Under the pieces are notes generated by a model, which saw nothing but the letters and a program-made list of their open reading frames with translations, was not told the DNA's origin and did no database searches. A stretch of 64,000 bases of DNA from Scandinavium goeteborgense (GTDB lineage: Bacteria > Pseudomonadota > Gammaproteobacteria > Enterobacterales > Enterobacteriaceae), in the NCBI RefSeq assembly GCF_003935895.2, contig NZ_CP054058.1, positions 2,213,177 through 2,277,176 on the forward strand, read 5' to 3'. Each line of letters begins with the position of its first letter. Within the stretch, counting starts at the first letter, position 1. Shown here piece by piece: positions 7,397-54,227 of the stretch. The position numbers and the translations under genes are program-made.

Positions 7397-7410
7397 TGAC
7401 CTGATCTCTG

Positions 7411-7430: not shown

Positions 7431-7442
7431 TATTTAGAACAC

Positions 7443-7465: not shown

Positions 7466-7523
7466 TACGCCCTTAATAATACTCCCTTTAGCACCTCTGC
7501 GCTTTTTGTCTTTAAGGGAGATA

Positions 7524-8706: not shown

Positions 8707-8715
8707 GCTGACCTC

Positions 8716-8758: not shown

Positions 8759-8823
8759 AGAGTCAAAAGTAAAATTGCTGGTTGTTATTGGTTTGTAGCA
8801 AAACATCGCAATAAACTTGAAAG

Positions 8824-8839
8824 AGTGATTTGGATCACG
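8824..8839. promoter_or_regulatory. CRP-like site upstream of yneE
   Basis: AGTGATTTGGATCACG contains the half-sites GTGA and TCAC separated by six bases, the geometry of the CRP consensus TGTGA-N6-TCACA, with one mismatch in each outer position. It lies about 40 bases upstream of the yneE start. Confidence 0.45.
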
Positions 8840-8878
8840 TTAAATAACGCAGCCTTCCTTTTTTACTGATAGTGACTC

Positions 8879-9793
8879 ATGATCCTCAGACCCACTGAAC
8901 ACTGGCTGCCCCGTATTTTTGTCTGGCACGGCGCGGTGTTACCTAAGATTTTCTCCCGACTGTTGCTCAATTTTCTGTTATCGGTGGCCGTTATCATTAT
9001 GCTGCCCTGGTATACCTCGCTCGGCGTGAAGCTCACCGTCGCGCCGTTCAGCATTCTCGGCGTCGCCATCGCCATATTCCTCGGCTTTCGTAATAACGCC
9101 TGTTACTCACGCTACGTCGAAGCGCGCCAGCTTTGGGGCCAGTTGATGATTGCCTCACGTTCGCTGCTGCGGGAAGTGAAAAACACGCTGCCGCCGGAAA
9201 CGGATGTGGCGGCATTTGTGCGTCTGCAAATTGCGTTTGCGCACTCGCTGCGGATGCAGCTGCGTCGTTTGCCACAGCAAAAAACGCTGGAGAAATACCT
9301 GACGCCAGAACAGCTCGCGCAGGTTTTAGCGGTGCAGTCTCCGGCGAACCGTATTTTGCTGCTAATGGGCAACTGGCTGGCGGAACGTCGTCAGCAGGGC
9401 GCGCTGTCGGACATTCTGTTCCACAGCCTCAACAATAGGCTCAACGATATGTCGGGCGTGCTGGCAGGCTGCGAGCGCATTGCGGGCACGCCAGTACCGT
9501 TCGCTTATTCGCTGATCCTGCATCGAACGGTTTACATGTTCTGCATCATGCTGCCATTTGCATTGGTGAGCGACCTGCATTACATGACGCCGTTCATCTC
9601 GATGCTGATTTCGTATACCTTCATTTCCCTGGATGTATTGGCGGAAGAGCTTGAAGAACCGTTCGGGGTGGAAAATAATGACCTGCCGCTGGACGCCATC
9701 ACTAACGCGATCGAGATCGATCTGCTGCAAATGAATGATGAAAAAGACGTTCCAGCAAAAATGCTCCCCGATAAGTGCTATCAACTCACCTAA
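8879..9793 (+). CDS. yneE: Bestrophin-family membrane protein YneE
   Basis: The 304-residue protein closely resembles E. coli YneE (same length) of the bacterial bestrophin family, pentameric inner-membrane anion or ion channels. Hydrophobic segments are visible near residues 20-45, 50-70, 210-235 and 235-255. The family signatures GFRNNACYSRYVEARQLWG and the C-terminal EELEEPFGVENNDLPLD are intact. In E. coli yneE also lies between uxaB and tam. Here a fic gene separates it from uxaB and an acetyltransferase plus a microprotein separate it from tam. The transported ion cannot be told from sequence. Confidence 0.93.
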   Translation: MILRPTEHWLPRIFVWHGAVLPKIFSRLLLNFLLSVAVIIMLPWYTSLGVKLTVAPFSILGVAIAIFLGFRNNACYSRYVEARQLWGQLMIASRSLLREVKNTLPPETDVAAFVRLQIAFAHSLRMQLRRLPQQKTLEKYLTPEQLAQVLAVQSPANRILLLMGNWLAERRQQGALSDILFHSLNNRLNDMSGVLAGCERIAGTPVPFAYSLILHRTVYMFCIMLPFALVSDLHYMTPFISMLISYTFISLDVLAEELEEPFGVENNDLPLDAITNAIEIDLLQMNDEKDVPAKMLPDKCYQLT

Positions 9794-9804
9794 GGAAATC
9801 CGCA

Positions 9805-10245
9805 ATGGACGTTTTGATTCGTGACATTCAACCCCAGGACAAAGCCCAGTGGCGTACCCTGTGGAATGGCTATAACCAGTTCTACGAATCCAAAGTCCGC
9901 GAATCCGTGACCGAAAAAACCTGGTTGCGGATGATGAATGCGCAATCGTCCATTTTCGGGCGCGTCGCAGAAGTGAACGGTCAGGTGGTTGGGTTTGCGC
10001 ACAGCGTGCTGCATGAGGGCACCTGGGAGTTATCCCACATATGTTATCTGGAAGATCTGTTTGTCGCCCCGGAAATGCGTGGACATGGCATCGCGCGCTG
10101 TCTGATTCAAGCCTTAGTCAATGAAGGCAAAGCGCAGGGCTGGTCCCGCTTGTATTGGCATACTCGGGAGAATAACCCGGCGCGTAAACTGTACGACGAG
10201 TTTACCGAGGTGGAAGACTTCGTGCTTTATCGGATGAATCTGTAA
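9805..10245 (+). CDS. GNAT-family N-acetyltransferase
   Basis: This 146-residue single-domain GNAT protein has the acetyl-CoA loop as VAPEMRGHGIARCLIQAL (motif R-G-H-G-I-A, about residues 84-101) and the C-terminal YWHTRENNPARKLYDEF segment typical of small-molecule acetyltransferases. The ATG at 9805 is chosen over an upstream in-frame ATG at 9775, which lies inside yneE, because AAGGA precedes it. It follows yneE by 11 bases and may be co-transcribed with it. The substrate is unknown. Confidence 0.88.
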   Translation: MDVLIRDIQPQDKAQWRTLWNGYNQFYESKVRESVTEKTWLRMMNAQSSIFGRVAEVNGQVVGFAHSVLHEGTWELSHICYLEDLFVAPEMRGHGIARCLIQALVNEGKAQGWSRLYWHTRENNPARKLYDEFTEVEDFVLYRMNL

Positions 10246-10313
10246 CCGTGCCGGGTAAGAAATCATTAAGATTTTCCCAGTAACATGGCCATCGAGCCAA
10301 CAGGAGAATCATC

Positions 10314-10412
10314 ATGGAAAAGAAAATTGAGACCGCCCTGAACATTATCATTTTTGTTTCTCTGTTCGCGACGGCCTGGGATCTCTCTTTAGTCCGCGAT
10401 TTCAGCTGGTAA
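10314..10412 (+). CDS. 32-residue single-span membrane microprotein
   Basis: A short frame with a strong ribosome-binding site (AGGAG eight bases before ATG) encodes 32 residues: a KK-containing N-terminus, one hydrophobic segment ([14 protein letters not shown], residues 9-22) and an Asp/Arg-containing tail ending in FSW. It overlaps the 3' end of the convergent tam gene by 11 bases. I do not recognise a family. The composition and signals are typical of enterobacterial membrane microproteins such as those that tune transporters. It lies 68 bases after the acetyltransferase. Confidence 0.6.
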
Positions 10413-11163
10413 CGCGGCGCGCCATAATAAACAACCGTGGGAATGCCAGCAGGATTTGACCGTTTTGCTGGCGAGGGTAATGCTCTTCCAGTAATTGCAG
10501 ATAACGACTCAAAAACGCCTTCTGACTAACGCTATCCAGATCCTGTAAGAAAGGACGTAAGCCGGTCGCGCTCAGCCATTCCACGATTGCCTGATGCGAG
10601 GCCATCGGATGAAAATAGGTCGTTCGCCAGACATCCACTTCACAACCGCTCCCGCTCAATAAATCGTAATAACCCTGCACGCTTTCCAGCGGAATGCGCC
10701 CGTGCGCCGGGTGCCCAAGCTCGGCGGCGACCTGACGCATTAAAGCATGGGACGGTTCCTGCCAGTTGTCCGGCATTTGCACCGCTAACACACCATCTTT
10801 CGCCAGCAGCGAAGCCAGACGCGGAAACAGCGTGGGATGGCCAGACACCCATTGCAGCGAGGCGTTGGCATACAGCACGTCGAGCGGCTGTTCGGGTTGC
10901 CACGCGCCAATATCTGCATTCACAAACTGACAATCCGGCAGCGCTTTTTGCGCTTTATCCAGCATCGCCGGGGAATTATCCACGCCGGTAATCACGGCAT
11001 CGGGCCACGCGCCACGCAGCAGCTCGGTGCTGTTTCCAGGGCCACAGCCTAAATCAGCAATGTGCTTTGCTGACGGTTTGGCAATACGGGCGAGCAGTTC
11101 CGCCGCCGGGCGGGTACGTTCGGACGCAAACTGCAAATATAACGACGGGTTCCAGTCGGCCAT
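10402..11163 (-). CDS. tam: Trans-aconitate 2-methyltransferase Tam
   Basis: The 253-residue class I methyltransferase has its SAM-binding motif I at [15 protein letters not shown] (about residue 35) and a following [14 protein letters not shown] segment. The N-terminus [20 protein letters not shown] matches E. coli Tam, which methylates trans-aconitate, a spontaneous by-product and inhibitor of the citric acid cycle, using S-adenosylmethionine. The start ATG has AAGGAG upstream. It is transcribed toward the microprotein and yneE, keeping the E. coli neighbourhood. Confidence 0.94.
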
Positions 11164-11314
11164 TTCTGACTCCTTAGCGCGGTTTCAACGGCTTACAGCA
11201 TAGCGCAGGCGGCGCGATTTAACCGTAAACGATCATTGAATGTCTGAAGGATTTTCAGCACGAGGATATTGCGCAGTTTTGCGAAAAATATCGCTGATGA
11301 CGGAAGGGGAAACG

Positions 11315-11345
11315 ACGGTGAGCCGACGGGCGACTCACCGTTTTT
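11315..11345. terminator. Hairpin downstream of the glutamate dehydrogenase gene
   Basis: ACGGTGAG (11315-11322) pairs with CTCACCGT (11334-11341), followed on the plus strand by TTTTT and preceded on the minus strand by a run of A after the gdh stop. It is probably a terminator, possibly bidirectional, between the divergent tam promoter region and the end of gdh. Confidence 0.6.
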
Positions 11346-11351
11346 CAGGCC

Positions 11352-12626
11352 TTAGCCTGGATAGATACCACGATCTTTACGCGCTAGCAGAATGCGTTCG
11401 CAAGCAACGATGTACGCGGCGGTTCGCAAGGAGCAGGTTTTTTCCGCTGCTTTTTCCCAGACGTGAACCATCGCGTCGGTCATGATTTTATCCATGCGCG
11501 CATTAATTTCTTCTTCGCTCCAGAAGAAACTCGCCATGTCCTGAACCCATTCGAAGTAGCTGACGGTGACGCCACCGGCGTTACAGATAACGTCCGGCAC
11601 CACGATAATGCCACGGCTGGCGAGCATATCGTCGGCATCCGGATAGGTCGGCCCGTTTGCACCTTCGAGGATCAGTTTACATTTCAGCGTTTCCGCGCGA
11701 TGACGGGTAATCTGACCTTCCAGCGCGGCCGGGATCAGAATGTCCATCTCAATGTCCCAGAAGGCTTCGCTGGCAATGGTTTCCGCGCCCGGGAAACCGG
11801 CGATCTGTTTGTGTTCAATCTGCCAGGTGGTCAGGGCGTTCATGTCGATGCCCATCGCGTTAAACAGCGTCGCAGTGTGGTCCTGAATCGCCACCACGCG
11901 TGCGCCGGATGCGGCAAACAGGCGAGCTGCTTCGCTGCCGACGTTACCGAAACCTTGCACCGCGACGCGAGCGCCTTCCACCGGAATGTTGGCCCTGCGC
12001 GCCACTTCACGGCCGCTGATCCACACCCCGCGGCCGGTCGCTTTTTCACGTCCGAGAGAGCCGCCAAGGTGAATCGGTTTGCCAGTAACGACGCCGGTGA
12101 TGGTGGTGCCGTGATTCATGGAGTAGGTGTCCATCATCCACGCCATCACTTTGCCGTTGGTGCCGACGTCCGGCGCTGGAATGTCTTTTTGCGGCCCGAT
12201 GATGATGCCGATTTCGCTGGTATAGCGACGAGTCAGACGCTCAAGTTCGCCTTCAGACAGGGCAAACGGGTCAACGCGAATACCGCCTTTTGCGCCGCCG
12301 TAGGGCAGGTTCAGCGCCGCACATTTGATGGTCATCCAGGCAGACAACGCCATCACTTCGTTCAGATCCACATCCGGGTGGTAGCGCACACCGCCTTTGC
12401 CCGGGCCGCGGGAGAGGTTGTGCTGCACCCGATAACCTTCGAAATGACGGATGGTGCCATCGTCCATCTGAACTGGAATATCCACAATCAACGCACGTTT
12501 CGGATGACGAAGGGTATCCACCCAACGGGTCAGCTCGCCCAGGTAGGGCTCAACGCGCTCGATTTGTTGCAGGTAGGTGTTCCAGGCAGATGTATTGCTA
12601 TCTGAAGCGTAAGATAACTTATCCAT
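11352..12626 (-). CDS. Glu/Leu/Phe/Val-type glutamate dehydrogenase
   Basis: The 424-residue enzyme belongs to the ELFV dehydrogenase family: [11 protein letters not shown] with the catalytic Lys lies near residue 115, the substrate-site PDVGTN follows, and a Rossmann motif [14 protein letters not shown] occurs near residue 220. It interconverts glutamate and 2-oxoglutarate plus ammonia. At 424 residues it is shorter than E. coli GdhA (447) and resembles the alternative, often catabolic and NAD-linked enzymes seen in several enterobacteria; cofactor preference is inferred. AAGG precedes the ATG. The upstream 327 bases hold its promoter and a bidirectional terminator but no gene. Confidence 0.92.
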
Positions 12627-27803: not shown

Positions 27804-27925
27804 GTTTAGGGTTCCTGTTAGTTGTCAGTCGTGTTTGACTGGATTCAGTTTGGCCCCGAAAGGAGGTAAACTCAAATATATAGATTTTACTGATCAATCA
27901 TTTTTATTGATTGATGGAGAGGGTT

Positions 27926-28819
27926 ATGGATTTACGTCACCTGAGATACTTTTTGGCCGTCGCTGAAGAACGACATTTCGGCCGAGCGGCAGAACGGCTC
28001 AATATCGTTCAGCCCGCATTGAGCATGCAGATAAAAGCCCTTGAAGCCGAGCTGGGCGGTCCGTTGCTGATTCGTACCAGTCGTCGGGTCGAACTGACCG
28101 ACGCCGGTAAGCTTTTGCAGGCCGAAGCCATGCGCACGCTCGAGCACATGGAACATACGCGACTTGCGGTCGAGCGGTCGATTCGCGGGGAAACGGGTAG
28201 GGTGCGGGTCGGGTTTGCTGGCAATGCCGTCTTTAGCGGCAGGCTGATGCAGGACGTTCGCGCGTTTCATCAGGCGTATCCAGATGCTGAGATTATTTGT
28301 CAGGAGTTGGCCCCGCAGCTGCAAAATGAGGCTATTCAGAACGGCACACTGGATGTGGGTTATATGCCTGATTACTATCCTGATCATGACTCAGCCCTGG
28401 TGTATGAATCCGTGGGTGAATGGGGGCGGGTGGTGGTGATGTCCAGCGAGCATCCGCTTGCCGATAAAGAGAGTCTGACTGTCGATATGCTGGCCAATGA
28501 ACCGTTAATCATGTACTCCATCAACGACGCGGATTCTGAGCTGGATACGCAGTTACAAAAGCTGCTGGGTGATTCGTTGAATATTGCCTGGCGTATTTCC
28601 AGCTCACTGAGCGTGCTCGCGATGGCCGGGGCCGGGCTTGGGATCGCGCTGGTTCCCGCGCCGTTAGCGCAGGTGGCTATTCCGGGCGTGGTCTATCGGG
28701 TACTTGATTCGAAGGCGCTCACAGCCAATCTGATGCTGGTCAGCCGTAAAAACGAACCCAGCGCTGCGGTGCTGGCCTATCTTACCCATACGCGAAAAGA
28801 CACCCTTATAAAAGGTTGA
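27926..28819 (+). CDS. LysR-family transcriptional regulator
   Basis: The 297-residue regulator has the LysR helix-turn-helix at residues 1-60 (LRYFLAVAEERHFGRAAERLNIVQPALSMQIKALE) and a periplasmic-binding-like effector domain. The ATG at 27926 is preceded by GGAGAGG; the longer frame from 27911 lacks this. It is divergent from the NTF2-like gene and followed closely by a convergent alpha/beta hydrolase, so it most likely activates the amidohydrolase operon in response to a pathway intermediate. Confidence 0.92.
   Translation: MDLRHLRYFLAVAEERHFGRAAERLNIVQPALSMQIKALEAELGGPLLIRTSRRVELTDAGKLLQAEAMRTLEHMEHTRLAVERSIRGETGRVRVGFAGNAVFSGRLMQDVRAFHQAYPDAEIICQELAPQLQNEAIQNGTLDVGYMPDYYPDHDSALVYESVGEWGRVVVMSSEHPLADKESLTVDMLANEPLIMYSINDADSELDTQLQKLLGDSLNIAWRISSSLSVLAMAGAGLGIALVPAPLAQVAIPGVVYRVLDSKALTANLMLVSRKNEPSAAVLAYLTHTRKDTLIKG
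28195..28202 (+). other. KOPS octamer pointing toward dif
   Basis: GGGTAGGG fits GGGNAGGG and points rightward to dif; it lies inside the LysR gene. Confidence 0.6.
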
Positions 28820-28835
28820 GCGACTTTCATCATAA

Positions 28836-29639
28836 TTATTTGCTCAGGGTAATCAGGATTTGATGCAACTCATTGGCGAACAGCTGTGGATCGGTGGCAT
28901 AGCTCAGGTGATGACCGCTGATTTCAATACACGGGCAGGGTAGTTGGCTGGCCAGCTCGCGGGCGGTCAGAGCATAAAATGCGTCGGCACTGGTGCGGCC
29001 TCGGGCAGTTACCATGGGCACAGCGTTATGGCGAAGCAGATTCAGATCTGGGACAAAGCGGCTGATGACATTGAATTCGTGAGCAAGAAAACGCGCATAG
29101 GCACTGCCTTGATCGCCTGGAGCGCTGGCGTTCAGATCCAGACCAACGAACGCGGTGTTAAACAGTTTCATCGCTTCGGCTCCGCCGTCGACTTTATAGG
29201 TGTTGTACACGCGGTCGAAAAAGTGGCGCCAGGTGGTGGCTTCAAGCTCTGGCAATAAGTCAGTGATGGGTGGCTCGTGATCGACCAGGGCGCGAACTAA
29301 TTGCGGGTGATCCTGCGTCAGCTTTAGCGCAATGTTAGCGCCAGCACTGTGACCGAACACAAACGCTTTTTCAGTACCCATGGCACGAATAACGGCCGCC
29401 GCATCGCGACCTTGTTGCGCCATGTCCAGTTCAGCATGAATATCGCCGGTACTGCGGAAATTAGCGCGACGATCGTAACGCACTACGGTGTAGTTATCAC
29501 AAAGCTGAGCCGACAAGGCGGCGAAACGTCGGCTGTCACCATTCCCGCCAGCAACCAGCAGCAGTAATGGCCCTTGACCTTCAACGTCATAAGCGATGTC
29601 AGCGCCCTCGGTGTGAACGGTAGCGGAATAGCCGTGCAT
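28836..29639 (-). CDS. Alpha/beta-hydrolase
   Basis: The 267-residue enzyme has an oxyanion-region LLLVAGGNGDSRRF, the nucleophile elbow GHSAG near residue 97, and a C-terminal catalytic His in SGHHLSY. It resembles small esterases and haloperoxidase-like hydrolases; the substrate is unknown. GGAG precedes the ATG. It is convergent with the LysR gene and could work with the nearby amidohydrolase and NTF2-like proteins, although it has its own promoter. Confidence 0.88.
   Translation of the reverse strand: MHGYSATVHTEGADIAYDVEGQGPLLLLVAGGNGDSRRFAALSAQLCDNYTVVRYDRRANFRSTGDIHAELDMAQQGRDAAAVIRAMGTEKAFVFGHSAGANIALKLTQDHPQLVRALVDHEPPITDLLPELEATTWRHFFDRVYNTYKVDGGAEAMKLFNTAFVGLDLNASAPGDQGSAYARFLAHEFNVISRFVPDLNLLRHNAVPMVTARGRTSADAFYALTARELASQLPCPCIEISGHHLSYATDPQLFANELHQILITLSK
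28933..28940 (+). other. KOPS octamer pointing toward dif
   Basis: GGGCAGGG fits GGGNAGGG and points rightward to dif. Confidence 0.6.
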
Positions 29640-29762
29640 GGTGTTTTCTCCACAGGGATAGTGGAATAAAGTCTGGACCCAAGAAAAGATAACTTCAAAT
29701 GGATAGATTTTTCCGATCTATCAGCCGCCCATCTGAGCGGCAAATGAATTATGCCTGAATGG

Positions 29763-30728
29763 TTATTTCTCTGATTTGCTTCCCAGTAAGGGTATTAGTC
29801 GAATATAAATAAGCTCACTCAGTAATTCGACCATTGTCTGCATAACAATCACCGCTGGTAAAACAGGTATTGCTCCGGGTACTGAAAGCGCAAGTGGAAG
29901 TATAACCAAGGAATTTCGTGTTCCTGCACTAAACGCAATGGCTCTGCCAGAGGTAGCGTTTAATCTGAATAATCTGGATACACACCACCCGGCTAATGGC
30001 GCCAGCACTGCAAAGGCAACGTATACAGGCACAACATGTAATGCCGCTGATTTAGCTTCTCCCAGTTGAGGAACCATTGCTGCGACGACAACAAACAAGA
30101 CAACTGCCGTCGCCGGAACAGGTAGCAAACCAAGCCCTTTATTAATTGAATACCCCAGTTGACTCCTGCTGCTCCAGAATTGGGTCAAACTTGCCAGGCA
30201 AAGAGGCATCACGATCAACCACATGAAGGCCTGAAAAAATGGCCCGGGTCTGACGAGCCCTTCAGCCTGGTCACCCAGAAATAAATGCAGATACACTGGC
30301 AAGAGCAGTACCTGCATAATCAGTAGCGCAGGTGTGGAAGCCAAAAGTAGTTTCGAATCGCTCCGACCCAATTGTGAAAATGTCACCACATAATCGATAC
30401 AGGGGCTCAGGAGAACCATGAGCACTCCCAGCATGACAAGCGGATTATTTGGAATAAACTGTATCAGGAAAGCAACCAGCACCGGTACGATCACGAAATT
30501 GGCTATAAGCAATGGCATGAGGAAGCGAATACGGGTGAATGCTTGGCCAAGTTCGGCTACAGGAACCTGGAGAAACGTGACATACAACATCAGTGCCAGC
30601 ACCGGAGTTATTGCTTTTTCAAATACTGACGTGCCTGGAACCACAGTGGCGAAAATAGCAGCCAGGACCACTGCAAAAAAATAAATAACGACCTGATGAA
30701 TTTCAAGCCGTTCTCTTAGCTGCATCAT
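29763..30728 (-). CDS. SBF-fold arsenite permease (ACR3-related) at the end of the ars operon
   Basis: The 321-residue inner-membrane protein has ten hydrophobic segments of the bile acid:sodium symporter fold. A conserved-type Cys occurs in LLSPCIDYVVTFSQLGRSD, as in the fourth helix of ACR3 arsenite exporters, and RNSLVILPLAL appears near residue 270. It lies 88 bases downstream of arsC on the same strand. This placement supports a role as a second arsenic efflux pump, beside ArsB. The alternative is export of another anion; substrate is inferred from context. Confidence 0.75.
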   Translation of the reverse strand: MMQLRERLEIHQVVIYFFAVVLAAIFATVVPGTSVFEKAITPVLALMLYVTFLQVPVAELGQAFTRIRFLMPLLIANFVIVPVLVAFLIQFIPNNPLVMLGVLMVLLSPCIDYVVTFSQLGRSDSKLLLASTPALLIMQVLLLPVYLHLFLGDQAEGLVRPGPFFQAFMWLIVMPLCLASLTQFWSSRSQLGYSINKGLGLLPVPATAVVLFVVVAAMVPQLGEAKSAALHVVPVYVAFAVLAPLAGWCVSRLFRLNATSGRAIAFSAGTRNSLVILPLALSVPGAIPVLPAVIVMQTMVELLSELIYIRLIPLLGSKSEK

Positions 30729-30816
30729 ATTTACTTAACTCGTATTCTTTCCATAAAGTTGAATATCATACGGATAAAACCCTCTGGTATACACCCCATG
30801 GTTTATACGAGAAAAG

Positions 30817-31248
30817 TTACTTTCGGATCAAACGACGCCCTTCGTTATCAACAACTTTTTCGCCGTCTTCTTTTGTGAACTCTGCTTTTTGAGCTTCCGG
30901 AAGTATCTCCAGAACCTTCTCTGACGGTCGGCATAACAATGTTCCAAGTGGCGTGACCACGACGGGACGATTCATCAGAATTGGGTGCGCGAGTATGGCG
31001 TCGATCAGTTCATCATTAGTGAATGTATTTTTATCAAGTTCTAACTGCTCATACGGCTCTGTATTTTTACGTAACAATGCCCGAACAGTGATCCCCATAT
31101 CTGCAATCAGTTTCACCAGTTCCTCACGGGTTGGTGGTGTATCGAGATAGAGGATAACGGTGGGTTCAGTCCCGCTGTTGCGGATCATTTCAAGGGTATT
31201 TCGGGACGTCCCGCAGGCCGGGTTGTGATAAATGGTAATGTTGCTCAT
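30817..31248 (-). CDS. arsC: Arsenate reductase ArsC (glutaredoxin-dependent)
   Basis: The 143-residue enzyme has the catalytic Cys12 in NPACGTSRN and the downstream arginine-containing segments (ILMNRPVVVTPLGTLLCRPSEKVL) of the E. coli plasmid-type ArsC. It reduces arsenate to arsenite with glutathione and glutaredoxin, so that ArsB can export it. It begins 12 bases after arsB. Confidence 0.96.
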   Translation of the reverse strand: MSNITIYHNPACGTSRNTLEMIRNSGTEPTVILYLDTPPTREELVKLIADMGITVRALLRKNTEPYEQLELDKNTFTNDELIDAILAHPILMNRPVVVTPLGTLLCRPSEKVLEILPEAQKAEFTKEDGEKVVDNEGRRLIRK

Positions 31249-31260: not shown

Positions 31261-32550
31261 TTACAAAGTGAAAGACAGACGAAGCGCCAGTGCTGCCAGC
31301 GTGAGAAACAGCACGGGGAGTGTCATAACAATGCCCACCCGGAAGTAATATCCCCAGGTAATTTTGATGTTTTTCTGCGAAAGAACATGCAGCCAAAGTA
31401 AGGTTGCCAGGCTGCCGATAGGGGTAATTTTAGGCCCCAGATCGCTGCCGATGACGTTGGCGTAAATCATCGCTTCTTTGATAACACCAGTGGCTGCGCT
31501 GCCCTCAATCGACAGCGCCCCAACCAGCACGGTCGGCATATTGTTCATCACCGATGACAGGAAGGCTGTCAGGAAGCCAGTACCCAACGTTGCCGCCCAT
31601 AATCCTTGTTCTGCCAGCTGATTCAGCACGGATGAAAGATAATGGGTCAGACCGGCATTTCGTAAGCCGTAGACCACCAGATACATCCCCAACGAGAAGA
31701 TAACGATTTGCCATGGGGCACCTCGCAACACCTTGCCTGTGTTAATGGCATGACCTTTTTTCGCAACCACAAACAGGAGCAGGGCACCAACAGCAGCGAC
31801 CAGACTGACAGGAACGCCCAGCGGCTCCAGTCCGAAGAACCCCACCAGAAGTAAAATCAGAACCAGCCAGCCGGTTTTAAAGGTATTCGCATCGCGTATA
31901 GCGTCTTTCGGTTCTTTCAAAAGAGAAACGTCGTAAACGGCAGGAATGTCCTTGCGGAAAAACAGATGCAACATCACAAGCGTCGTCGCAATGGCCGCCA
32001 GGTTGACCGGCACCATCACGGCGGCATATTCGGAGAAACCAAGCTTAAAGAAATCCGCCGAGACGATGTTTACCAGGTTTGAGACAATCAGCGGCAGGCT
32101 TGCCGTGTCAGCGATAAACCCAGCGGCCATGACAAACGCTAAGGTTGACCCCTTGCTGAATCCCAGGGCCAGCAGCATCGCGATAACGATAGGCGTCAGG
32201 ATCAGTGCTGCACCGTCGTTGGCGAACAGTGCGGCGACCATCGATCCAAGCAGCACAATCCACGTGAAGAGAAGTCGCCCCCGGCCATTCCCCCAACGGG
32301 CAACGTGCAGCGCGGCCCATTCAAAGAAGCCGGATTCATCGAGCAGAAGACTGATGATAATCACGGCAATAAAGGTGGCGGTCGCATTCCACACTATCTG
32401 CCAGACCACCGGAATATCCCCCAGATGAACGACGCCAGTCAGCAATGCCAGACCTGCGCCCAGTGAGGCACTCCAGCCAATCCTCAGCCCTCTGGGTTGC
32501 CAGATAACCAGGACGAGCGTGAATATAAAGATAGCACCAGCCAGTAACAT
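31261..32550 (-). CDS. arsB: Arsenite efflux pump ArsB
   Basis: The 429-residue inner-membrane transporter has the length and sequence of E. coli ArsB, e.g. [29 protein letters not shown] and [50 protein letters not shown]. It exports arsenite and antimonite using the proton motive force. The second Met (32550) is the start, with GGAG seven bases ahead; the first Met at 32562 lacks a ribosome-binding site. It is 45 bases downstream of arsR. Confidence 0.96.
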
Positions 32551-32595
32551 CGGAAACTCCATTCACATTTGTTTATTCGAATATATACATCGTCA

Positions 32596-32916
32596 TCAGC
32601 AGGAGGCAGATGCAACGCTACTAAGCTTGTTGCGTATGTTTTCTCGTTCACAGTTCCAGGCGGTATCAATAATACCCGCAGCCCATGCAGGCATGTGTGG
32701 CGACAGTCGGTAATGCACCCATTTTCCTTCGCGGCGGTCGATGACCAGTTCTGCTTCGCGTAACAGCGCCATATGTCGTGAGATTTTTGGCTGAGATTCT
32801 GCGGTTGCCGCACAGATGTCACAGACGCACATCTCACCGGACTCCCTGAGTAGCATCACGATAGTCGAACGGGTTTCATCGGCGAGCAGTTTAAAAAGCT
32901 GAACAGGCTGTAGCAT
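32596..32916 (-). CDS. arsR: Arsenical operon repressor ArsR
   Basis: The 106-residue winged-helix repressor carries the arsenite-sensing motif CVCDIC and the recognition helix QPKISRHMALLREAELV, then KWVHYRLSPHMPAWAA, all as in E. coli ArsR. Binding of arsenite releases it from DNA. The start at 32916 (MLQPVQLFK) is preceded by GAGG and matches E. coli; the longer frame is not used. An AT-rich palindrome upstream is the likely operator. Confidence 0.95.
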   Translation of the reverse strand: MLQPVQLFKLLADETRSTIVMLLRESGEMCVCDICAATAESQPKISRHMALLREAELVIDRREGKWVHYRLSPHMPAWAAGIIDTAWNCERENIRNKLSSVASASC

Positions 32917-32943
32917 GCTTAACCTCGTTAAAAAATAACAACA

Positions 32944-32961
32944 CATATGATATTTCATATG
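32944..32961. promoter_or_regulatory. ArsR operator candidate
   Basis: CATATG occurs at 32944-32949 and 32956-32961 around a six-base spacer, forming an AT-rich dyad about 30 bases upstream of arsR. E. coli ArsR protects a site containing a similar CATATG element. Confidence 0.6.
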
Positions 32962-33002: not shown

Positions 33003-33062
33003 ATGACCGACTTACCGGCAATCGAACTCAGAAAGTTTGTTATTGGTGGAGTAGGGAAGTGA
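33003..33062 (+). other. Short frame with good ribosome-binding site, probable gene remnant
   Basis: After GGAG, an ATG opens a 19-codon frame (starting MTDLPAIEL) that ends in TGA. It is divergent from arsR. I do not recognise it. In the setting of neighbouring gene fragments it is more likely the head of a deleted gene than a functional microprotein. Confidence 0.3.
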
Positions 33063-33123
33063 CACGCCATTAAGCCGGAGCTCTTGATGTCCGTCCGGGT
33101 AATAACTCTGTCGAGACGGCAGT

Positions 33124-33189: not shown

Positions 33190-33218
33190 TTGCCAAATTT
33201 GGGACCGCTTAGATAAAT

Positions 33219-34337
33219 TTAACGGATGTTAAACCAGCCAGTGGTCTCTTCAATTACGCGCCAGAGTTTCTGGGGTATAGCAAGTTGCTCTACGTCTGAT
33301 GCAGCAATATTGAGAGCAATTTTTCCTTCAGCTTTGCCATCTGCAAACTTAACCCAGTCTGGGTTCATCACCATACCCTGACCTACGGCAGTCAAAGATA
33401 CCCCTGCTTTAACAGCATCCTCGGCTTGCTCTGGTGTTCGCAACTGTCCGGCAACAATAAGAGGTATACGTCCAGCCAGATGATCGCGCGCGATTTCAAT
33501 GGCTTTCGGGCCATTCGGTGCATCAACGGGTCTGGCTTCAAGTACATTACCGAGTGATACATGAAGATAATCAATACCTTCATCGACCAGGCGGTCAACC
33601 AGCTTAAGCGACTCATCAATGCGCAACCCATCTTCGTAATGCTCATCCAGTGAAATGCGGTATCCCATCAGGAAGGGATTGGTTGCATGCTCAGCAATCG
33701 TTTTACGCACACTCTCAATGACGCTGAGTGGGAAACGCATACGGTTTTTAAGAGAGCCGCCCCATTGATCCTCTCTACGGTTGGAATGAGGTGAGAAAAA
33801 GTTCTGAAGTAAAAAGCCATGAGCACCATGTAACTCAACACCATCAAATCCTGCTTCTATTGCACGGCGAGTTGCTTCCCCGAAATGCTGAATAACAGTT
33901 TCGACTTCAGTGCATGTCAGTTCACGAGGGGTAACGGACGGTGCGAAAGGACCGGCGTCACCGGGAATAGCGCTTGCAGCTACAATATCCGAAACCAGTT
34001 CAGGGCTGGTTTTCACACCTGCATGGAATATTTGTAAGATTGCCGGTGCTCCACCGCTTTTTGCAGCAATAGCCAGACGCTTCAAACCGGGAATAAATTT
34101 GTCGTCATACGCAGCAAACTCTCCCGTAAACCCAATGCCGTTTTCCTGAACATGTGTACAGCCAGTAATGACCAGCCCGATGTCCTGAACGCGTCGACGA
34201 TAATATGCTTCTTCCTCATGAGATACCGTGCCGTCATCATTACCAGCCCAGGTCGTCATCGGGGCCATCACAATACGGTTGCGCAGAGTCACACCTTTAC
34301 CGAGTGTAAATTTTTCAAGAAGTGGATTTTATTTCAT
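33219..34337 (-). pseudogene. NADH:flavin oxidoreductase (Old Yellow Enzyme family) with a stop at codon 3
   Basis: The main frame encodes an FMN-dependent ene-reductase-like TIM barrel: NRIVMAPMTTWAGNDDG, then FDGVELHGAHGFLLQNFFSPHSNRREDQWGG, then IVAGQLRTPEQAEDAV. Read upstream, the frame gives ATG AAA TAA and then codons for NPLLEKFTLGKGVTLRNR, the normal N-terminus of the family, so a TAA interrupts the gene at codon 3. Translation could only restart at the GTG at 34292, which would lose the first beta strand and has poor signals. It lies among other fragments, supporting decay; a sequencing error at this A-rich spot is the alternative. Confidence 0.7.
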
Positions 34338-34349
34338 GGATAGTTATAC

Positions 34350-34583
34350 CTAAATGAGATTCTTTTTGAAGAAAGGAGCCAGCTTCCCGGACATCATTAT
34401 TTCATTGTTCCGGAACAGGACGCTGCTGACTGTGACGCCATCTACATGTGTCGTGGTGCCAGATATATGAGGGGTAGGTGAGTGCAGGGCTGAAGCATGA
34501 CTCGCCATCAGAAATCCTGCGGAGGCCACTGAGCTTGTCAGGATAAAATTTCGGCGGCTTAATCCACCTGTTTTATTACTCAT
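34350..34583 (-). pseudogene. Truncated Tat-exported alpha/beta hydrolase
   Basis: The 77-residue frame begins with a twin-arginine signal (LSRRNFILTSSVASAGFLMA) and continues HVDGVTVSSVLFRNNEIMMSGKL, the usual start of a hydrolase domain of about 300 residues. It then ends abruptly after ten unrelated residues. The catalytic elbow is absent. It is 12 bases upstream of the damaged Old-Yellow-Enzyme gene, so the truncation and the stop codon probably belong to one decay process. The ATG and ribosome-binding region are intact. Confidence 0.7.
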
Positions 34584-34775
34584 AGCGAGACTCCCTCATT
34601 TACATGATGACGGCCCTGGCCGCTGAAAGAACACAGATTGTTTCAGTGGCCATCTTAATCTCTTTAGTATTCAGAAATTAGATGCTTAATTTCGCATGGG
34701 CTTAGAAGGAGATTTTCTTAATGGGGTGATAAGAAACTACGTTCAATATGGACCGGGATAAACAGCGTTCAAAGG

Positions 34776-35666
34776 TTATGGGATGCGGAGTGCTTTGAGC
34801 ACAAGTGCAAATGCCGGAGAATGTTGCAAACGGCTGGGGTAGTAAAGATGGTAGGGGGGACGCGGTGGGCACCAGTCAGTCAGCACCTGGACTAACATCC
34901 CGTTTTCAAGGTAATTCTCCACCGTATCTAGCGGCAGATAAGCAAGCCCCAGCCCATCAAGGGCGGCCTGCCTCATCATATTTATTGTGCTGAAAATCGC
35001 TCGTCCATCAATTCGCACCTTAATTTCAGTCTCATCCTTGCGAAACTCCCAGGTATAGAATCCTCCATGAGTGGGCAGGCGTAATTTGATACAGCTGTGG
35101 TCGTTTAAATCACGTGGTGTTTCCGGATATATCTTCCCCATGAAATAAGAGGGCGCACCGACCACTGCAAAACGGAAGTCCCTGGTAAGTGGCAGGGAAA
35201 TCATATCCATATCCACCTGTTCGCCCAACCGAACTCCGGCATCATAACGCTCAGCGACAATATCCTTGAGTCCGTACTCGCTGATAATTTCAATGTTGAT
35301 ATCGGGATATTCGAGCATCACAGGAGCGAGTTTAGGCCAGAGAATTGTATCAGCGGCATGTTCAACGGCAGTAATACGCACAGTACCGGCTGGTTTTTCT
35401 CGCAATCCGCTGAGCGCGGCAATCTCACTTTCAATTTCGTCAAAATGGGGTCCTATACGAGAAAGTAACCGCTCGCCAGCTTCTGTCGCCGAAACGCTAC
35501 GTGTGGTACGGGTAAGAAGACGAAGACCAAGGTCTGCTTCAAGAGTCCTCACCGTGTAGCTCAGCGCCGACTGTGAGACACCTAACTGAGTTGCCGCTTT
35601 TGTGAAGCTTTTTTCCCGGGCTACTGCGATAAAAGCTTGATAATCGTTAATATTTTTACGGCGCAT
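34776..35666 (-). CDS. LysR-family transcriptional regulator
   Basis: The 296-residue regulator appears intact, with the helix-turn-helix FIAVAREKSFTKAATQLGVSQSALSYTVRTLEADLGLRLLTRTTRSV and an effector domain of the AaeR/DmlR subgroup ending HSPAFALVLKALRIP. Its former target genes are probably the fragmented dehydrogenase, reductase and hydrolase genes downstream, or a gene upstream now replaced by an IS remnant. The 192-base gap after it (34584-34775) shows nothing of note. Confidence 0.9.
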   Translation of the reverse strand: MRRKNINDYQAFIAVAREKSFTKAATQLGVSQSALSYTVRTLEADLGLRLLTRTTRSVSATEAGERLLSRIGPHFDEIESEIAALSGLREKPAGTVRITAVEHAADTILWPKLAPVMLEYPDINIEIISEYGLKDIVAERYDAGVRLGEQVDMDMISLPLTRDFRFAVVGAPSYFMGKIYPETPRDLNDHSCIKLRLPTHGGFYTWEFRKDETEIKVRIDGRAIFSTINMMRQAALDGLGLAYLPLDTVENYLENGMLVQVLTDWCPPRPPYHLYYPSRLQHSPAFALVLKALRIP

Positions 35667-35743
35667 TTATTAAACCAATTTCTAAGTGAGGCATCATTAG
35701 AGGCATTAACAAAATAATTCGAATAAAGGCAATTTGTCCATCA

Positions 35744-36076
35744 TTAATGCCTGGCAAATTTACGTGGTAACCAAAGACTGGCCTGAGTCATCAGCTTACG
35801 GACGGTTTCTTTGGAAAGATGAACGCCGTGAACCTCAGATAGTTTTTCACAAGCCAGAGTCGGACCGAAATCGTTATAGCATTCGGGACTAATGTTCAGT
35901 GCGTATGCGGCCAAGTACCGGAGGCAACTGATTATTGCTCGATTTACCATGACGGCGGCCGGACCATCATCACGATAACGCGGTATCAGACGGCGGCACT
36001 GACGGTCGTAGATACCAAACCGTTGAACTGCCATCTGTGTTTGTCAGGCGTCAGGCCGGTCGATAACGTCCTGAAT
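35744..36076 (-). mobile_element. ISNCY-type transposase N-terminal remnant
   Basis: The minus strand encodes IQDVIDRPDA, a TGA stop (36044-36046), then RFGIYDRQCRRLIPRYRDDGPA and later DFGPTLACEKLSEVHGVHLSKETVRKLM followed by TQASLWLPRK. This is the helix-turn-helix N-terminal part of ISNCY/IS1202-like transposases. The first helix is split by the stop, the SRRRGKPSN-like linker is scrambled, and the DDE catalytic domain is missing. No terminal repeats could be assigned. It lies 17 bases from dif. Confidence 0.7.
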
Positions 36077-36092
36077 TAGCTACTACAACCTT

Positions 36093-36120
36093 AGTGCGCA
36101 TAATGTATATTATGTTAAAT
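36093..36120 (+). other. dif chromosome-dimer resolution site
   Basis: The 28-base site reads XerC arm AGTGCGCATAA, centre TGTATA, XerD arm TTATGTTAAAT. This equals the E. coli dif sequence except for the first base (A for G). XerC and XerD recombine here to resolve chromosome dimers, activated by FtsK at the septum. Its genomic position between the uxaB/tam block and the digH/maeA block agrees with E. coli dif. It marks the replication terminus and the expected switch of strand composition. Confidence 0.95.
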
Positions 36121-36245: not shown

Positions 36246-37718
36246 CTACCGGTACTCAGCATTGAGTAATGTCTCTGCCGTCTCTTTCACACTTGTCAGC
36301 AGGACGATGACATCCTCCAGACAAACGGTTGGATTCAACAGCGTCATCTTCAGGCACGTTACGCCGTCCGCTTCCGTTACCCCAACGTTGGCGCTTCCGG
36401 ATGCCAGCAGCACATCACCGATACGCTGGTTCAGCAATGCGACAAATGCGCTATCGCCGCTTTCTGGACGGAACCGGAACAATACGCTTGCCAACTGTGG
36501 CTGCATGACTAGTTCCAGGTGCAGCTGTGCTGAAACATATTCAGCCACTTGCTGCGACAGCGTGACACCGTTATCAATGATCTCGGCATACTGCTTTTTA
36601 CCTAACGCTTCAAGGCCCATCCACAATTTCAGGGCATCGAAACGACGCGTTGTTTGCAACGATTTTGACACGAGGTTCGGCACGCCCTGCTCTTCGTCAA
36701 AATCAGAGTTGAGATATGCCGCCTGATAACGCATCAGCTCGTAATGACGTGCGTCTTTTAACAGGAATGCCCCACAGCTGATGGTCTGGAAGAACTGCTT
36801 GTGGAAATCCAGGGTCACCGAGTCTGCGCATTCCAGGCCGCTCAGATAGTGGCGATACTTCTCAGAAAGCAGCAGCGCGCCACCCCAGGCGGCATCAACG
36901 TGAACCCAAATATTTTCTTGGGCGGCGAGCGTTGTTATCTCAACTAACGGATCAATGGCACCCGCATCCGTCGTACCGGCAGTGGCCACAATCGCCATCA
37001 CCTGTTCACCGTTGGCTTTCGCCTGCGCCAGTTTGGCTTTCAGATCAGAAAGATCCATGCGTGAGAACGCGTCGGTTTTCACTTGAGTGACAGACCGATA
37101 GCCCAGCCCCATCAACGCCATGTTTTTTTGCACGGAAAAATGCGCGCTTTCAGAGCAGAAAACTTTGATTTTGCTCAGATCGCCGGTTAAACCGTGCTGC
37201 TGAACGGAGTGTCCCTGACGGGCGAAGAAAGCGTCACGCGCCAACATCAGCCCCATCAGGTTGCTCTGGGTGCCGCCACTGGTGAATACGCCCGCGTCAC
37301 CGCCGCGGTAACCCACCTGCTCACGCAGCCACTCGATGAGTTTAATCTCAATGATAGTGGCGGAAGGACTTTGATCCCAGGAGTCCATGCTCTGGTTAGT
37401 GGCATTGATCAACACTTCTGCCGCCTGGCTAATCACCAGGCTTGGACAGTGCAGATGCGCCACACATTGTGCGTGATGGACTAACAAGCTGTCCTTGAGA
37501 AAATACTCAACAGCACGGGCAATGGCAGCCTGGTTGCCCAGGCCTTCAGGGGTAAAGTTCAACTGGATGCGCTCGCGCAGCTGGTCGACGGTTTTGCCCT
37601 GGTACATTTCGGGCTGCTTCAACCAGTCGATGACCGCCTGGCTGCTCTGCTCAATAGCGTCCTGATAGGCAGCGATACTTTGCGCCGAACCGGACAGAAT
37701 CGGATTGTTATCAGACAC
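36246..37718 (-). CDS. ddc: L-2,4-diaminobutyrate decarboxylase
   Basis: The 490-residue PLP enzyme belongs to the group II decarboxylases. The segments GVFTSGGTQSNLMGLMLAR, VHVDAAWGGALLLSEKY and the PLP-lysine motif TLDFHKQFFQ are clear. It converts L-2,4-diaminobutyrate to 1,3-diaminopropane. The start is GTG with GGAG upstream, 14 bases after dat, so dat and ddc form an operon as in Acinetobacter and Enterobacter species. Diaminopropane is a polyamine in its own right. Confidence 0.94.
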   Translation of the reverse strand: MSDNNPILSGSAQSIAAYQDAIEQSSQAVIDWLKQPEMYQGKTVDQLRERIQLNFTPEGLGNQAAIARAVEYFLKDSLLVHHAQCVAHLHCPSLVISQAAEVLINATNQSMDSWDQSPSATIIEIKLIEWLREQVGYRGGDAGVFTSGGTQSNLMGLMLARDAFFARQGHSVQQHGLTGDLSKIKVFCSESAHFSVQKNMALMGLGYRSVTQVKTDAFSRMDLSDLKAKLAQAKANGEQVMAIVATAGTTDAGAIDPLVEITTLAAQENIWVHVDAAWGGALLLSEKYRHYLSGLECADSVTLDFHKQFFQTISCGAFLLKDARHYELMRYQAAYLNSDFDEEQGVPNLVSKSLQTTRRFDALKLWMGLEALGKKQYAEIIDNGVTLSQQVAEYVSAQLHLELVMQPQLASVLFRFRPESGDSAFVALLNQRIGDVLLASGSANVGVTEADGVTCLKMTLLNPTVCLEDVIVLLTSVKETAETLLNAEYR

Positions 37719-37732
37719 GTTGTTAACTCCGA

Positions 37733-39115
37733 TTAAACTGGCTTGAGGCCAGCGCCCAGCAAGGCGTTTTCAAATTTATCGAGGAAAATTTCCAGCTCAG
37801 CGTTGGTAATCAGCAGAGATGGCAGCAGGCGCAGGACGCAACCATGACGGCCGCCGCGCTCCAGAATCAAACCGGATTCAAAGCATTTTTTCTGCAGCAA
37901 TGCAGAAAGCTCGCCATCCGCCGGGTAGCAGCCCATGTGATCCTGCGCTTCATTCGGCTTCACGATTTCAATGCCGATCATCAGGCCCAGACCGCGTACG
38001 TGACCGATAACCGGATAACGTTGTTGCAGTTCAGCCAATTTGCCTTTCAGCCACTCGCCCTGAGCGGCAACTTTATCCGCAATGCCGTCATCTTTGAGGA
38101 TCTTAAGCGTGGTCAGGCCGGTGGCCATCGCCAGCTGGTTCCCGCGGAATGTCCCGGTATGGTGTCCTGGCGCCCATGCGTCAAACTGCTTTTTAATACC
38201 CAGTACGGCTAACGGCAAACCGCCACCGACCGCTTTAGACATCACGATGATGTCAGGCTCGATACCGGCGTGTTCAAAGGCGAACTGTTTGCCGGTGCGG
38301 CAGAAACCAGCCTGAACTTCGTCGATGATCAGCAGAATGCCATGCTCCTGCGTGACTTTACGGATGCGCTGCAGCCACTCAGCCGGAGCCGGGTTCACAC
38401 CGCCCTCACCCTGCACTGCTTCTAGGATCACTGCCGCAGGTTTGCGTACGCCGCTTTCCACATCATTGATCAAGTTTTCGAAGTAATACGTTAATGCTTT
38501 AACGCCTGCCTCACCGCCAATACCCAGCGGGCAGCGATACAGATGCGGATAAGGCATAAACTGCACTTCCGGCATCATGTTGCTGACGGCTTCTTTTGGC
38601 GACAGGTTGCCGGTCACGGCAAGTGCGCCGTGCGTCATGCCGTGGTAGGCGCCGGAGAAACTGATGATGCCTGATCGTCCGGTGACTTTTTTTGCCAGTT
38701 TGAGCGCTGCTTCTACGGCATCAGCGCCAGATGGACCGGTGAATTGCAGGCAATACTCTTGGCCCTGACCCGGTAATAAAGAGAGTAAATAAGATGAAAA
38801 TTCATCTTTTAGAGGGGTGGTCAAATCCAGCGTATGTAACGGTAAGCCACTGCTGATGACACTTTGAATGCTTTGAAGCACGTCAGGATGATTATGACCC
38901 AGCGCCAGGGTTCCGGCGCCTGCCAGACAATCAAGATATTGATTATTTTCAACGTCGGTTATCCATACGCCCTGCGCTTTGGCAATGGCCAAGGGCAGTT
39001 TACGTGGATAGCTTCTGACGTTAGATTCAAACTCGGCTTGTCTTGCGAGGAAGGTATCATTGCTTTGAGGTAATGAATGAGCACTTAAAGTATCAATACG
39101 GACTTTATCCGTCAT
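37733..39115 (-). CDS. dat: Diaminobutyrate--2-oxoglutarate aminotransferase
   Basis: The 460-residue class III aminotransferase has the PLP site motif [41 protein letters not shown] and the [15 protein letters not shown] segment. It makes L-2,4-diaminobutyrate from aspartate semialdehyde with glutamate as amino donor. Two ATGs are adjacent, and 39115 is preferred for spacing from AGGAG. It is the first gene of the dat-ddc operon and is divergent from an aspartokinase gene that could supply its substrate. Confidence 0.94.
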
Positions 39116-39614
39116 CATATCACTCCTACAACCACGGGTATTATTAACACCGGATTGAGTTAAAGGTTAAAGGAATTGCCTGTAAAAAACGCGGCTAATA
39201 TATGTTGTTTTAAAAAAGGACTCAATCATTTATTTTAATTTGCTTTTTATCCTTTAAAATCAACGTATAAAAAGCATTGTCTCGATTGTTAACTGGCATT
39301 GGTAACTGTATGTAACGCCATGAAGACCATCGCTTTTATGCGGCTTTACTCCGCCCTGACGCAAACTTACCGCCAATGACACGAGTATCGTCCTATAAGG
39401 CGTTATTTCCATTGGTTTATTTCTCGATTAAATAAAAACGTCGACCCCTAAAGATAAATCACTTACTATGTCGCGCTTATTTACGGACGCCGTAAATAAA
39501 TAACTAAACAGAAATGTTCGCGGGCGGACATTTCGTAAGGTGAAGCGTGCTTCCCTTATGCCGAGAATGAAAGTTTCTTGCCATCTTTTTATGGCGCCCT
39601 GATATGAGATTGTT
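39116..39614. promoter_or_regulatory. Divergent control region between dat and the second aspartokinase
   Basis: This 499-base region has no gene. It contains a perfect dyad TTATTTACGG-acg-CCGTAAATAA at 39477-39499 and a second hairpin GAAATGT...ACATTTC at 39511-39534 in the aspartokinase leader. No lysine-riboswitch elements like those of E. coli lysC are visible. The dyads are good candidates for a shared regulator site. Confidence 0.55.
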
Positions 39615-52898: not shown

Positions 52899-54227
52899 AT
52901 TATCAGCTCACGTAAACTCTCCATCATTGCACGAGTCACTATCACCGGGGCGCTGATTGCCAGTGCGCTTCTGCTTGCTAATTGCACGTCAGAAAAACCT
53001 AAATCGTTGGTGACTCCGCTGCCTCCGGTAGCCAAACATCCGCTGCCCGATAAACCTGCCGATAACCAGCCCGTGCGCGGCGTGTGGCTGACCACCGTTT
53101 CGCGACTCGACTGGCCGCCGGTGGCCTCGGTTAACATCAGCGACTCTGTGACGCGCGCTAATCAGCAAAAGAAAGCGCTGACCGACAAGCTGGATAAGCT
53201 GCAAAGCCTCGGTATTAACACCGTCTTCTTCCAGATTAAGCCCGATGGGACTGCCCTTTGGCCGTCCCAGATCTTGCCGTGGTCCGATATGCTGACCGGT
53301 AAAGTGGGCCAGGACCCGGGTTACGATCCGTTGCAGTTCATGCTTGATGAAGCGCACAAACGCGGCATGAAAGTTCACGCGTGGTTAAACCCGTATCGCG
53401 TCTCCACCAATACCAAACCTGGCACCGTGGCCGAGCTGAATCGCACGATTTCAATGCACCCGTCCAGCGTGTATGTGGCGCATCGCGACTGGATCAGAAC
53501 CTCCGGCGATCGCTATGTTATCGACCCGGGCATTCCCGAAGCGCGTGACTGGATAACCAGCATCGTAGCGGAAGTGGTGTCGCGCTACCCGGTCGACGGC
53601 GTGCAGTTCGATGATTACTTCTATACCGAAACCGCCGGTTCTGCCCTGAACGACAGCCAGACGTTCCGCATTTACGGCCAGGGTTATGCCTCGAAGGCCG
53701 ACTGGCGTCGACACAATACCGAACAGTTGATCACCCAGGTATCGCGGACCATCAAACAGCTGAATCCAAACGTACAGTTTGGCGTGAGTCCGGCTGGCGT
53801 GTGGCGCAACCGCTCGCACGATCCGGCGGGGTCTGATACCCGTGGTGCGGCGGCGTATGACGAATCGTATGCAGACACCCGTTTGTGGGTGCAAAAAGGT
53901 CTGCTGGATTACATTGCGCCGCAGGTTTACTGGCCGTTCGCGCGCGATGCGGCGCGTTACGACGTGCTGGCAAAATGGTGGGCTGATGTGGTGAAACCGA
54001 CGCACACTCGTTTGTATATTGGTGTGGCGCTGTATAAGGTCGGGGAACCGTCCAGGAATGAGCCAGACTGGACCGTGCAGGGCGGCGTACCAGAGCTGAA
54101 AAAGCAGCTCGATTTAAACGACGCACTACCGGAAATTCAGGGCACTATTCTGTTCCGTGAGAACAACCTCAATCAGCCACAGACTCAGCAGGCGGTGAAT
54201 TACCTGCGCAGTCGCTGGGGAAGCTGA
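52899..54227 (+). CDS. digH: Divisome-localised glycosyl hydrolase DigH (YddW), lipoprotein
   Basis: The protein resembles E. coli DigH throughout, e.g. GVWLTTVSRLDWPPVASVNIS and VHAWLNPYRVSTNTKPG; it binds denuded peptidoglycan glycans at the septum and cleaves them. The frame upstream encodes a lipoprotein signal with lipobox L-A-N-C, but no ATG, GTG or TTG occurs in frame between the preceding TAA (52884) and the signal. AGGGA lies just ahead of an ATT at 52899, giving 442 residues against 439 in E. coli, so ATT is proposed as the start. The GTG at 53007 would remove the signal. Confidence 0.85.
   Translation: MISSRKLSIIARVTITGALIASALLLANCTSEKPKSLVTPLPPVAKHPLPDKPADNQPVRGVWLTTVSRLDWPPVASVNISDSVTRANQQKKALTDKLDKLQSLGINTVFFQIKPDGTALWPSQILPWSDMLTGKVGQDPGYDPLQFMLDEAHKRGMKVHAWLNPYRVSTNTKPGTVAELNRTISMHPSSVYVAHRDWIRTSGDRYVIDPGIPEARDWITSIVAEVVSRYPVDGVQFDDYFYTETAGSALNDSQTFRIYGQGYASKADWRRHNTEQLITQVSRTIKQLNPNVQFGVSPAGVWRNRSHDPAGSDTRGAAAYDESYADTRLWVQKGLLDYIAPQVYWPFARDAARYDVLAKWWADVVKPTHTRLYIGVALYKVGEPSRNEPDWTVQGGVPELKKQLDLNDALPEIQGTILFRENNLNQPQTQQAVNYLRSRWGS

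Follow-up and report, generated by a model that had tools for sequence, protein, structure and literature searches.

A chromosomal dif site of Scandinavium goeteborgense and the remains of a putative IS1202-family arsenic transposon beside it

Transposons that target Xer sites are already known. The ISAjo2 group of the IS1202 family was described in Acinetobacter as ‘dif site hunters’ (Harmer, Pong and Hall 2023, PMC10132070); its members are reported there to have ACA ends and 5-bp duplications and to keep a single orientation at a distance of 5 bp from the XerC arm. A few other elements follow the same rule in that account, including ISKpn21, which is placed 5 bp from AGTGCGCATAATGTATATTATGTTAAAT in Table 8 of the same paper. 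Circle junctions of ISKpn21 were found in Klebsiella sequencing reads (PMC5001619), and in resistance plasmids it has been reported as an insertion in its own right (PMC10076803, PMC5955447). Cargo-bearing forms were not found described in the literature that we searched (open literature, no preprints and few subscription papers), nor did we find there a paper presenting the 7.2-kb ars element considered below as a dif-targeting transposon.

We analysed a window of 64,000 nucleotides, the whole stretch of S. goeteborgense DNA under study. Its junction of interest reads ...GCTACTACA, then ACCTT, then AGTGCGCATAA on the XerC arm side of dif, so that the tip spacing equals the published ISAjo2-group rule of 5 bp from the XerC arm (PMC10132070). 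The 28-mer itself is an ordinary, textbook dif. Very probably the locus consists of a single chromosomal dif together with a decayed IS1202-family ars transposon that inserted 5 bp from the XerC arm.

The dif site and the replication terminus

The following features define the site and its distant surroundings:

36093-36103, + strand: XerC arm of the chromosomal dif (sequence match)
36104-36109, + strand: spacer TGTATA of the chromosomal dif (sequence match)
36110-36120, + strand: XerD arm of the chromosomal dif (sequence match)
7447-7460, - strand: Ter (Tus-binding)-like site (consensus match, 0.02 expected by chance in the window)
2185-11181: blocks matching K-12 dgcF, uxaB, yneE and tam, XerC side (blastn)
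53074-53731: block matching K-12 digH, XerD side; the 44-kb K-12 stretch examined ends here

Positions 36093-36120 (+ strand) read AGTGCGCATAATGTATATTATGTTAAAT and show 1 mismatch, at the first base, to the E. coli dif sequence. This base is A in the window and G in the K-12 MG1655 record, as the preliminary description had it (E. coli dif save the first base). The window holds 1 match to E. coli dif; shuffled sequences gave 0 in 100. The genome (4.71 Mb) holds no other site within 3 mismatches of dif, and at this threshold the second, better site against which that description had cautioned was not seen; within the 400 kb around dif, where 40 kb read N, the next-best dif-like site has 8 mismatches. 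Such a dif (at most 1 mismatch, first base free) was present in 166/295 genomes of the family, with at most one copy per genome among the matches listed; a looser pattern found it in 233/392, many of the misses being genomes of 0.2-2 Mb. Both G and A occur as the first base among family genomes, the A of the window being present in others too. The outer bases of proteobacterial dif have been named as those variable within species (PMC2731167). With 28 bp, a XerC arm, the TGTATA spacer, a XerD arm and a position near the skew switch, the site resembles E. coli and other proteobacterial dif as described there (PMC2731167), differing from E. coli dif in having A, not G, as its first base.

Polarity was analysed in 40 stretches of 20 kb (0.8 Mb) of the 4,571,204-bp chromosome contig, comprising a contiguous 400 kb around dif (40 kb N) and 20 distant 20-kb stretches. 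GC skew was positive in 19/19 readable stretches left of dif (one other was all N) and negative in 17/20 to its right. Within the 400 kb (40 kb N), 12/13 forward KOPS were left of dif and 17/18 reverse KOPS were to its right, so that 29/31 within ±200 kb had the correct polarity; the best KOPS switch point fell between -7.2 and +29.1 kb of dif, and the cumulative GC skew peaked at -6.8 kb. KOPS of the 20 distant stretches were on the expected strand in 23/27 cases (left 14/17, right 9/10). The window alone contains 4 KOPS, all + and left of dif, a number not above chance. We used mnmG (gidA), a neighbour of oriC in E. coli, as a proxy for oriC; from its start at 4,541,634 the arms measure ~2.279 and 2.292 Mb, and dif lies ~7 kb from the antipode.

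The window was earlier proposed to be the replication terminus, and a search for a KOPS and GC-skew switch at the site was suggested. KOPS polarity, the skew peak at -6.8 kb and the position near the mnmG antipode bear this out, the switch being present in the 0.8 Mb sampled from the genome. The site is thus a chromosomal dif by consensus match, uniqueness in the genome and location at the KOPS/GC-skew switch; it marks KOPS/XerCD convergence, not necessarily the place where forks stop. The Ter-like site at 7447-7460, found with the Ter consensus, has no counterpart elsewhere in the 400 kb and lies at the edge of the uxaB match. From 11181 to 53074 there was no blastn match to the 44-kb K-12 stretch at the cut-off used; therefore the immediate neighbours of dif differ from those of K-12. 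The earlier statement that the site lies between E. coli backbone blocks holds at a distance, where the K-12 order relative to dif is kept, and fails for the immediate neighbours.

Similar elements do stand beside dif-like sites on plasmids (see below), as one would expect if the 28-mer were a plasmid-type Xer site brought by the island. However, the 28-mer is unique in the genome, with none other within 3 mismatches, has the spacer TGTATA and sits at the KOPS/skew switch near the antipode of mnmG, and we give hardly any credence to a plasmid-type origin. For a chromosomal dif, homology and position suggest XerCD/FtsK-dependent dimer resolution as the putative function: FtsK would arrive along the inward-pointing KOPS and activate XerC/XerD at dif, leading to resolution of chromosome dimers.

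On the XerD side, a diaminobutyrate decarboxylase/transaminase pair occupies 36246-39118. In Enterobacter sp. Bisph1, too, the decarboxylase is no more than 0.3 kb away from dif; in Citrobacter sp. 18056 no dif was found by pattern within 10 kb of it.

Transposon remnants on the XerC side

From dif outwards, the XerC flank contains:

36088-36092, + strand: ACCTT, putative target-site duplication between transposon tip and dif
36079-36087, - strand: surviving outer tip (GCTACTACA) of an IS1202-family left end
35759-36079, - strand: transposase N-terminal remnant, residues 19-127 of 467, broken frame (tblastn)
33195-35759, - strand: foreign block between the transposase pieces (match to E. coli EC102)
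34776-35666, - strand: LysR regulator (foreign block)
33219-34292, - strand: flavin oxidoreductase (foreign block)
33021-33104, - strand: transposase C-terminal remnant, residues 361-388 (tblastn)
33003-33027, + strand: arsH stub, first codons only
32596-32958, - strand: arsR
31261-32562, - strand: arsB
30817-31248, - strand: arsC
28820-30838: remainder of the accessory stretch, without a DNA match to the intact 7,188-bp element
29763-30728, - strand: SBF/ACR3-like transporter (accessory stretch)
28836-29639, - strand: alpha/beta hydrolase (accessory stretch)
27911-28819, + strand: LysR gene common to genus-mate G177, left limit of the accessory stretch

The N-terminal remnant (321 bp) has at least one in-frame stop, and four are counted over a longer stretch running on through dif; the identity of the remnant to an intact relative is 84% in DNA and 67-70% in protein. 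This 467-aa relative scored 513 bits against NF033594, ISNCY transposase (cut-off 250), and in its sequence a Q is seventh after the E taken as catalytic. Transposase residue 19 lies 14 bp from dif in the window, and residue 1 lies 81 bp from it in four other loci (L177, L187, L191, L193); an internal deletion of about 120 bp joins the tip to the remnant. The preliminary description had spoken of gene erosion next to dif. We find it in the form of the split transposase remnant with an in-frame stop; it fits a targeted transposon insertion with dif as the landmark, a reading that had escaped that description.

The foreign block, which also holds a remnant of an alpha/beta hydrolase, is 93-95% identical to E. 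coli EC102, where an ISNCY element separates its copy from dif, ~3-6 kb away. The oxidoreductase/hydrolase/LysR block was also found in six plasmid records (Rahnella, Enterobacter, Lelliottia), over most of its length in five and over 31% in one; identity across EC102 and these records was 92-95%. No mobile element proper to the block was identified in the two plasmid regions read.

The LysR gene of 27911-28819 ends ~180 bp from dif in G177; thus the stretch from 28.8 to 36.09 kb is accessory relative to this genus-mate. The arsR-arsB-arsC genes have the same order and orientation as in the intact 7,188-bp element, and they are 89% identical to its genes and to plasmid ars genes, which makes the window element a relative and no copy; sulP and uspA are absent from it. 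The distal element end and the second 5-bp copy were searched for in the window and not found, so the insertion event is read from a scar, and the window element is a remnant, no complete member of the IS1202 family. What it retains is a transposase remnant homologous to the family and an outer ACA-3′ end 5 bp from the XerC arm, with the left end proximal; a target-site duplication on both sides is missing.

Among six sampled members of the genus, a pattern search found the CTACA signature in the genome of the window only; the dif of G177 differs at a base required by the pattern, and its flank, read directly, is without a tip. The S. goeteborgense genome also has a 3.2-kb segment, 99.6% identical between a 143-kb contig and the chromosome (L242, L243), which holds two intact distant relatives (50% identity) of the transposase; no Xer-like site was found by pattern in the two 4-kb loci of these genes.

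Element spacing and intact relatives in other genomes

In 392 genomes of the family, offsets from 0 to 24 bp ahead of the third base of dif were screened for CTACA. Tips were found in 27 genomes; the distance to the 28-mer was 5 bp in 23 of them, 8 bp in 3 and 19 bp in 1, i.e. the 24 other offsets together accounted for 4 genomes. The tip-5 bp-dif signature was thus present in 23/392 genomes searched (23/233 with dif), with chance expectation of ~0.2 per offset for 233 dif sites (Poisson P about 5e-38, equal base frequencies). In 18/23 signature genomes the XerC flank showed transposase homology no more than 1.5 kb away, in one of them (L179) by a 26-residue match only; four others had none within that distance and one was at a contig end. 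Longer flanks and a stricter cut-off gave 17/22, and one of the five without homology has ars fragments. Two loci had transposase homology without the exact signature: the tip is altered in L166 and stands at 8 bp in L186. On the XerD side there was no transposase homology among the matches listed for 87 loci, duplicates included (flanks of 0.16-22.8 kb, median 1.5 kb). Of the signature genomes, 22 were examined for ars genes in the XerC flank (5.6-16 kb) and nine had them, the 23rd being at a contig end; in one of the nine, L211, the ars genes are in opposite orientation with 76-83% identity and need not, therefore, belong to the element at dif. A 4,169-bp element with matching 5 bp in L211 was left uncounted because our filter admits a weak end, here one with 4 mismatches, when the 5 bp match.

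The same spacing appeared from the element's side. A 19-bp element end, searched without regard to dif in the 392 genomes, was found in nine; in 7/9 it was followed, 5 bp on, by a Xer site with the XerD arm TTATGTTAAAT. Five of these seven have the TGTATA spacer, and all five are also in the CTACA signature set. The other two ends were followed by ACTTA and then by a TGTCAA sequence resembling another element's end.

One could suppose an ordinary dif with unrelated erosion beside it, the transposase fragment being there by chance since the terminus collects mobile debris; indeed, dif flanks differ among the relatives compared. Such an account has difficulty with a fixed 5-bp spacing and side in 23 genomes, with 23/27 tips at one of 25 offsets and with 7/9 ends, found without regard to dif, standing 5 bp from a Xer site. 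Moreover, transposase or ars homology was seen in 0/17 tip-free dif regions (~10 kb to either side of dif, save for one side of 3.9 kb in control L156; cut-offs as for signature loci). We regard chance debris as very improbable.

In 54 tip-free dif contexts (partly de-duplicated) we observed a conserved A-Y-N-T-T at -5 to -1 upstream of dif and a C-A-G-A-T-T-like motif at -23 to -18; element insertion displaces the latter, distal motif. The conserved sequence just upstream of dif is perhaps part of the docking signal.

Intact elements were found at chromosomal dif. An element of 7,188 bp with the gene order sulP-uspA-arsC-arsB-arsR-arsH-transposase is present in four genera (L201, L202, L203, L204); with reference to the L203 copy, 7,187, 7,185, 7,188 and 7,139 of 7,188 bases are identical, respectively. 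The 5-bp duplication is exact in L202 (ACATT) and L203 (ACCTC) and off by one base in L201; the L204 contig breaks off at the element. The L202 and L203 copies have TGT/ACA ends, terminal repeats outside dif, the 5-bp duplication and dif as target, as IS1202-family elements do. The chromosomal flanks of L201, L202 and L203 have no common blastn match. Exact duplications were also found in L207 (1,639 bp), L208 (8,885 bp) and L210 (6,714 bp, mixed transposase). The L208 element (positions 3083-11967, duplication ATCTT) belongs to the IS1202 family and is at chromosomal dif; its cargo is a Gabija phage-defence pair (GajA, E 7e-279; GajB, 8e-267).

At least 80% of the 7,188-bp element was present in 436 of 72,556 plasmid records, with 435 records having the best place at ≥99% identity. 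Nine E. coli records had at least 80% of the element, none of them chromosome-sized among the matches listed. The ars locus of one such plasmid is apparently in the backbone according to a table in PMC5955447. Of five plasmid copies read, four had ACTTA on both sides and the same upstream sequence, which probably indicates one insertion event; in three of these AGTGCGCATAA-N6-TTATGTTAAAT comes next, in one the apparent end of another element. In the fifth copy (L227) the two 5-bp flanks differ, and a dif-like site comes next.

Integration of the island by XerC/XerD recombination at dif, with no DDE transposase, would explain why the island abuts dif, and the differing spacers of the dif-like sites beside plasmid copies are such as Xer recombination could shuffle. 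Yet no second dif-like site exists within 7 mismatches in 400 kb (40 kb N), the L202 and L203 elements have their 5-bp target duplications and terminal repeats outside dif, and the far boundaries that were read in intact elements show the 5-bp copy and no dif; this alternative, an integrative element exploiting XerCD with dif copies at both ends, is, in our judgement, improbable and was rejected.

Anatomy suggests that elements can stack at Xer sites. In L210 the order is older tip, CTCTA, the newer element's TGTCAAGG end, its own tip, CTCTA, dif, as if the newer element had inserted between the older one and dif; the plasmid locus L154 looks like the same stack. We also noticed apparent stacks at Xer sites in L229 and L235, with the newer element between the older one and the site.

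Proposed mechanism and relation to known systems

In the mechanism that we favour, an IS1202-family ars transposon would have inserted exactly 5 bp from the XerC arm with its transposase-proximal end towards dif, docking at the Xer site, most likely via recognition of bound XerC by the transposase. Decay would then have cost the element its distal end and the greater part of both the transposase and arsH, and the oxidoreductase/LysR gene block would have come to lie inside the transposase gene. The outer tip and dif survived, the latter presumably through selection. What the window element once was can be seen from its intact relatives, which occupy dif in other genera and dif-like sites on plasmids.

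More broadly, it seems to us rather likely that Enterobacteriaceae harbour cargo transposons docking at Xer sites, which, with a single IS1202-family transposase and no Tn7-type helpers, shuttle payloads between plasmid dif-like sites and chromosomal dif, newcomers pushing older elements outward and dif serving as an attTn7-like hub. If so, the payloads would be the arsenic operon, Gabija and perhaps the oxidoreductase/LysR block, and the plasmids would be conjugative; some 10% of dif-bearing genomes would have such an element, or its scar, at dif; and, with newcomers inserting next to dif, its XerC flank would be a layered record. Most free-living members of the family keep dif, and dif-like sites occur on large conjugative plasmids; hence a transposon recognising such sites would find a landing site waiting in most recipients, and this would account for a near-identical 7.2-kb ars element on >400 plasmid records and at dif of four genera. 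The XerC flank of dif is thus a place to look for cargo genes, and a DDE transposase choosing its target through a host recombinase (XerC) becomes a testable idea.

The elements found here are like the ISAjo2 group in their large transposase (467 aa in the intact relative), TGT/ACA ends and one orientation (PMC10132070). They differ in size and content: ISAjo2-group elements are reported to be 1.3-2.5 kb with at most one extra ORF, and ‘arsen’, ‘cargo’ and ‘passenger’ have no occurrences in the main text of that paper (PMC10132070), whereas the elements at chromosomal dif in Enterobacteriaceae are a 7.2-kb arsenic and an 8.9-kb Gabija element. ISKpn21, compared by description only, has the same transposase length of 467 aa, and one plasmid record labels the transposase of the 7,188-bp element ‘ISKpn21 family’; it differs in being 2,278 bp long with one extra ORF. 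Unlike Tn7, the 7,188-bp element has, by annotation, no Tns-type helper among its seven annotated genes. Otherwise it resembles Tn7 at attTn7 (PMC10132070): both carry cargo, land at a set distance from a conserved site and in a set orientation, have TGT/ACA ends and make a 5-bp duplication.
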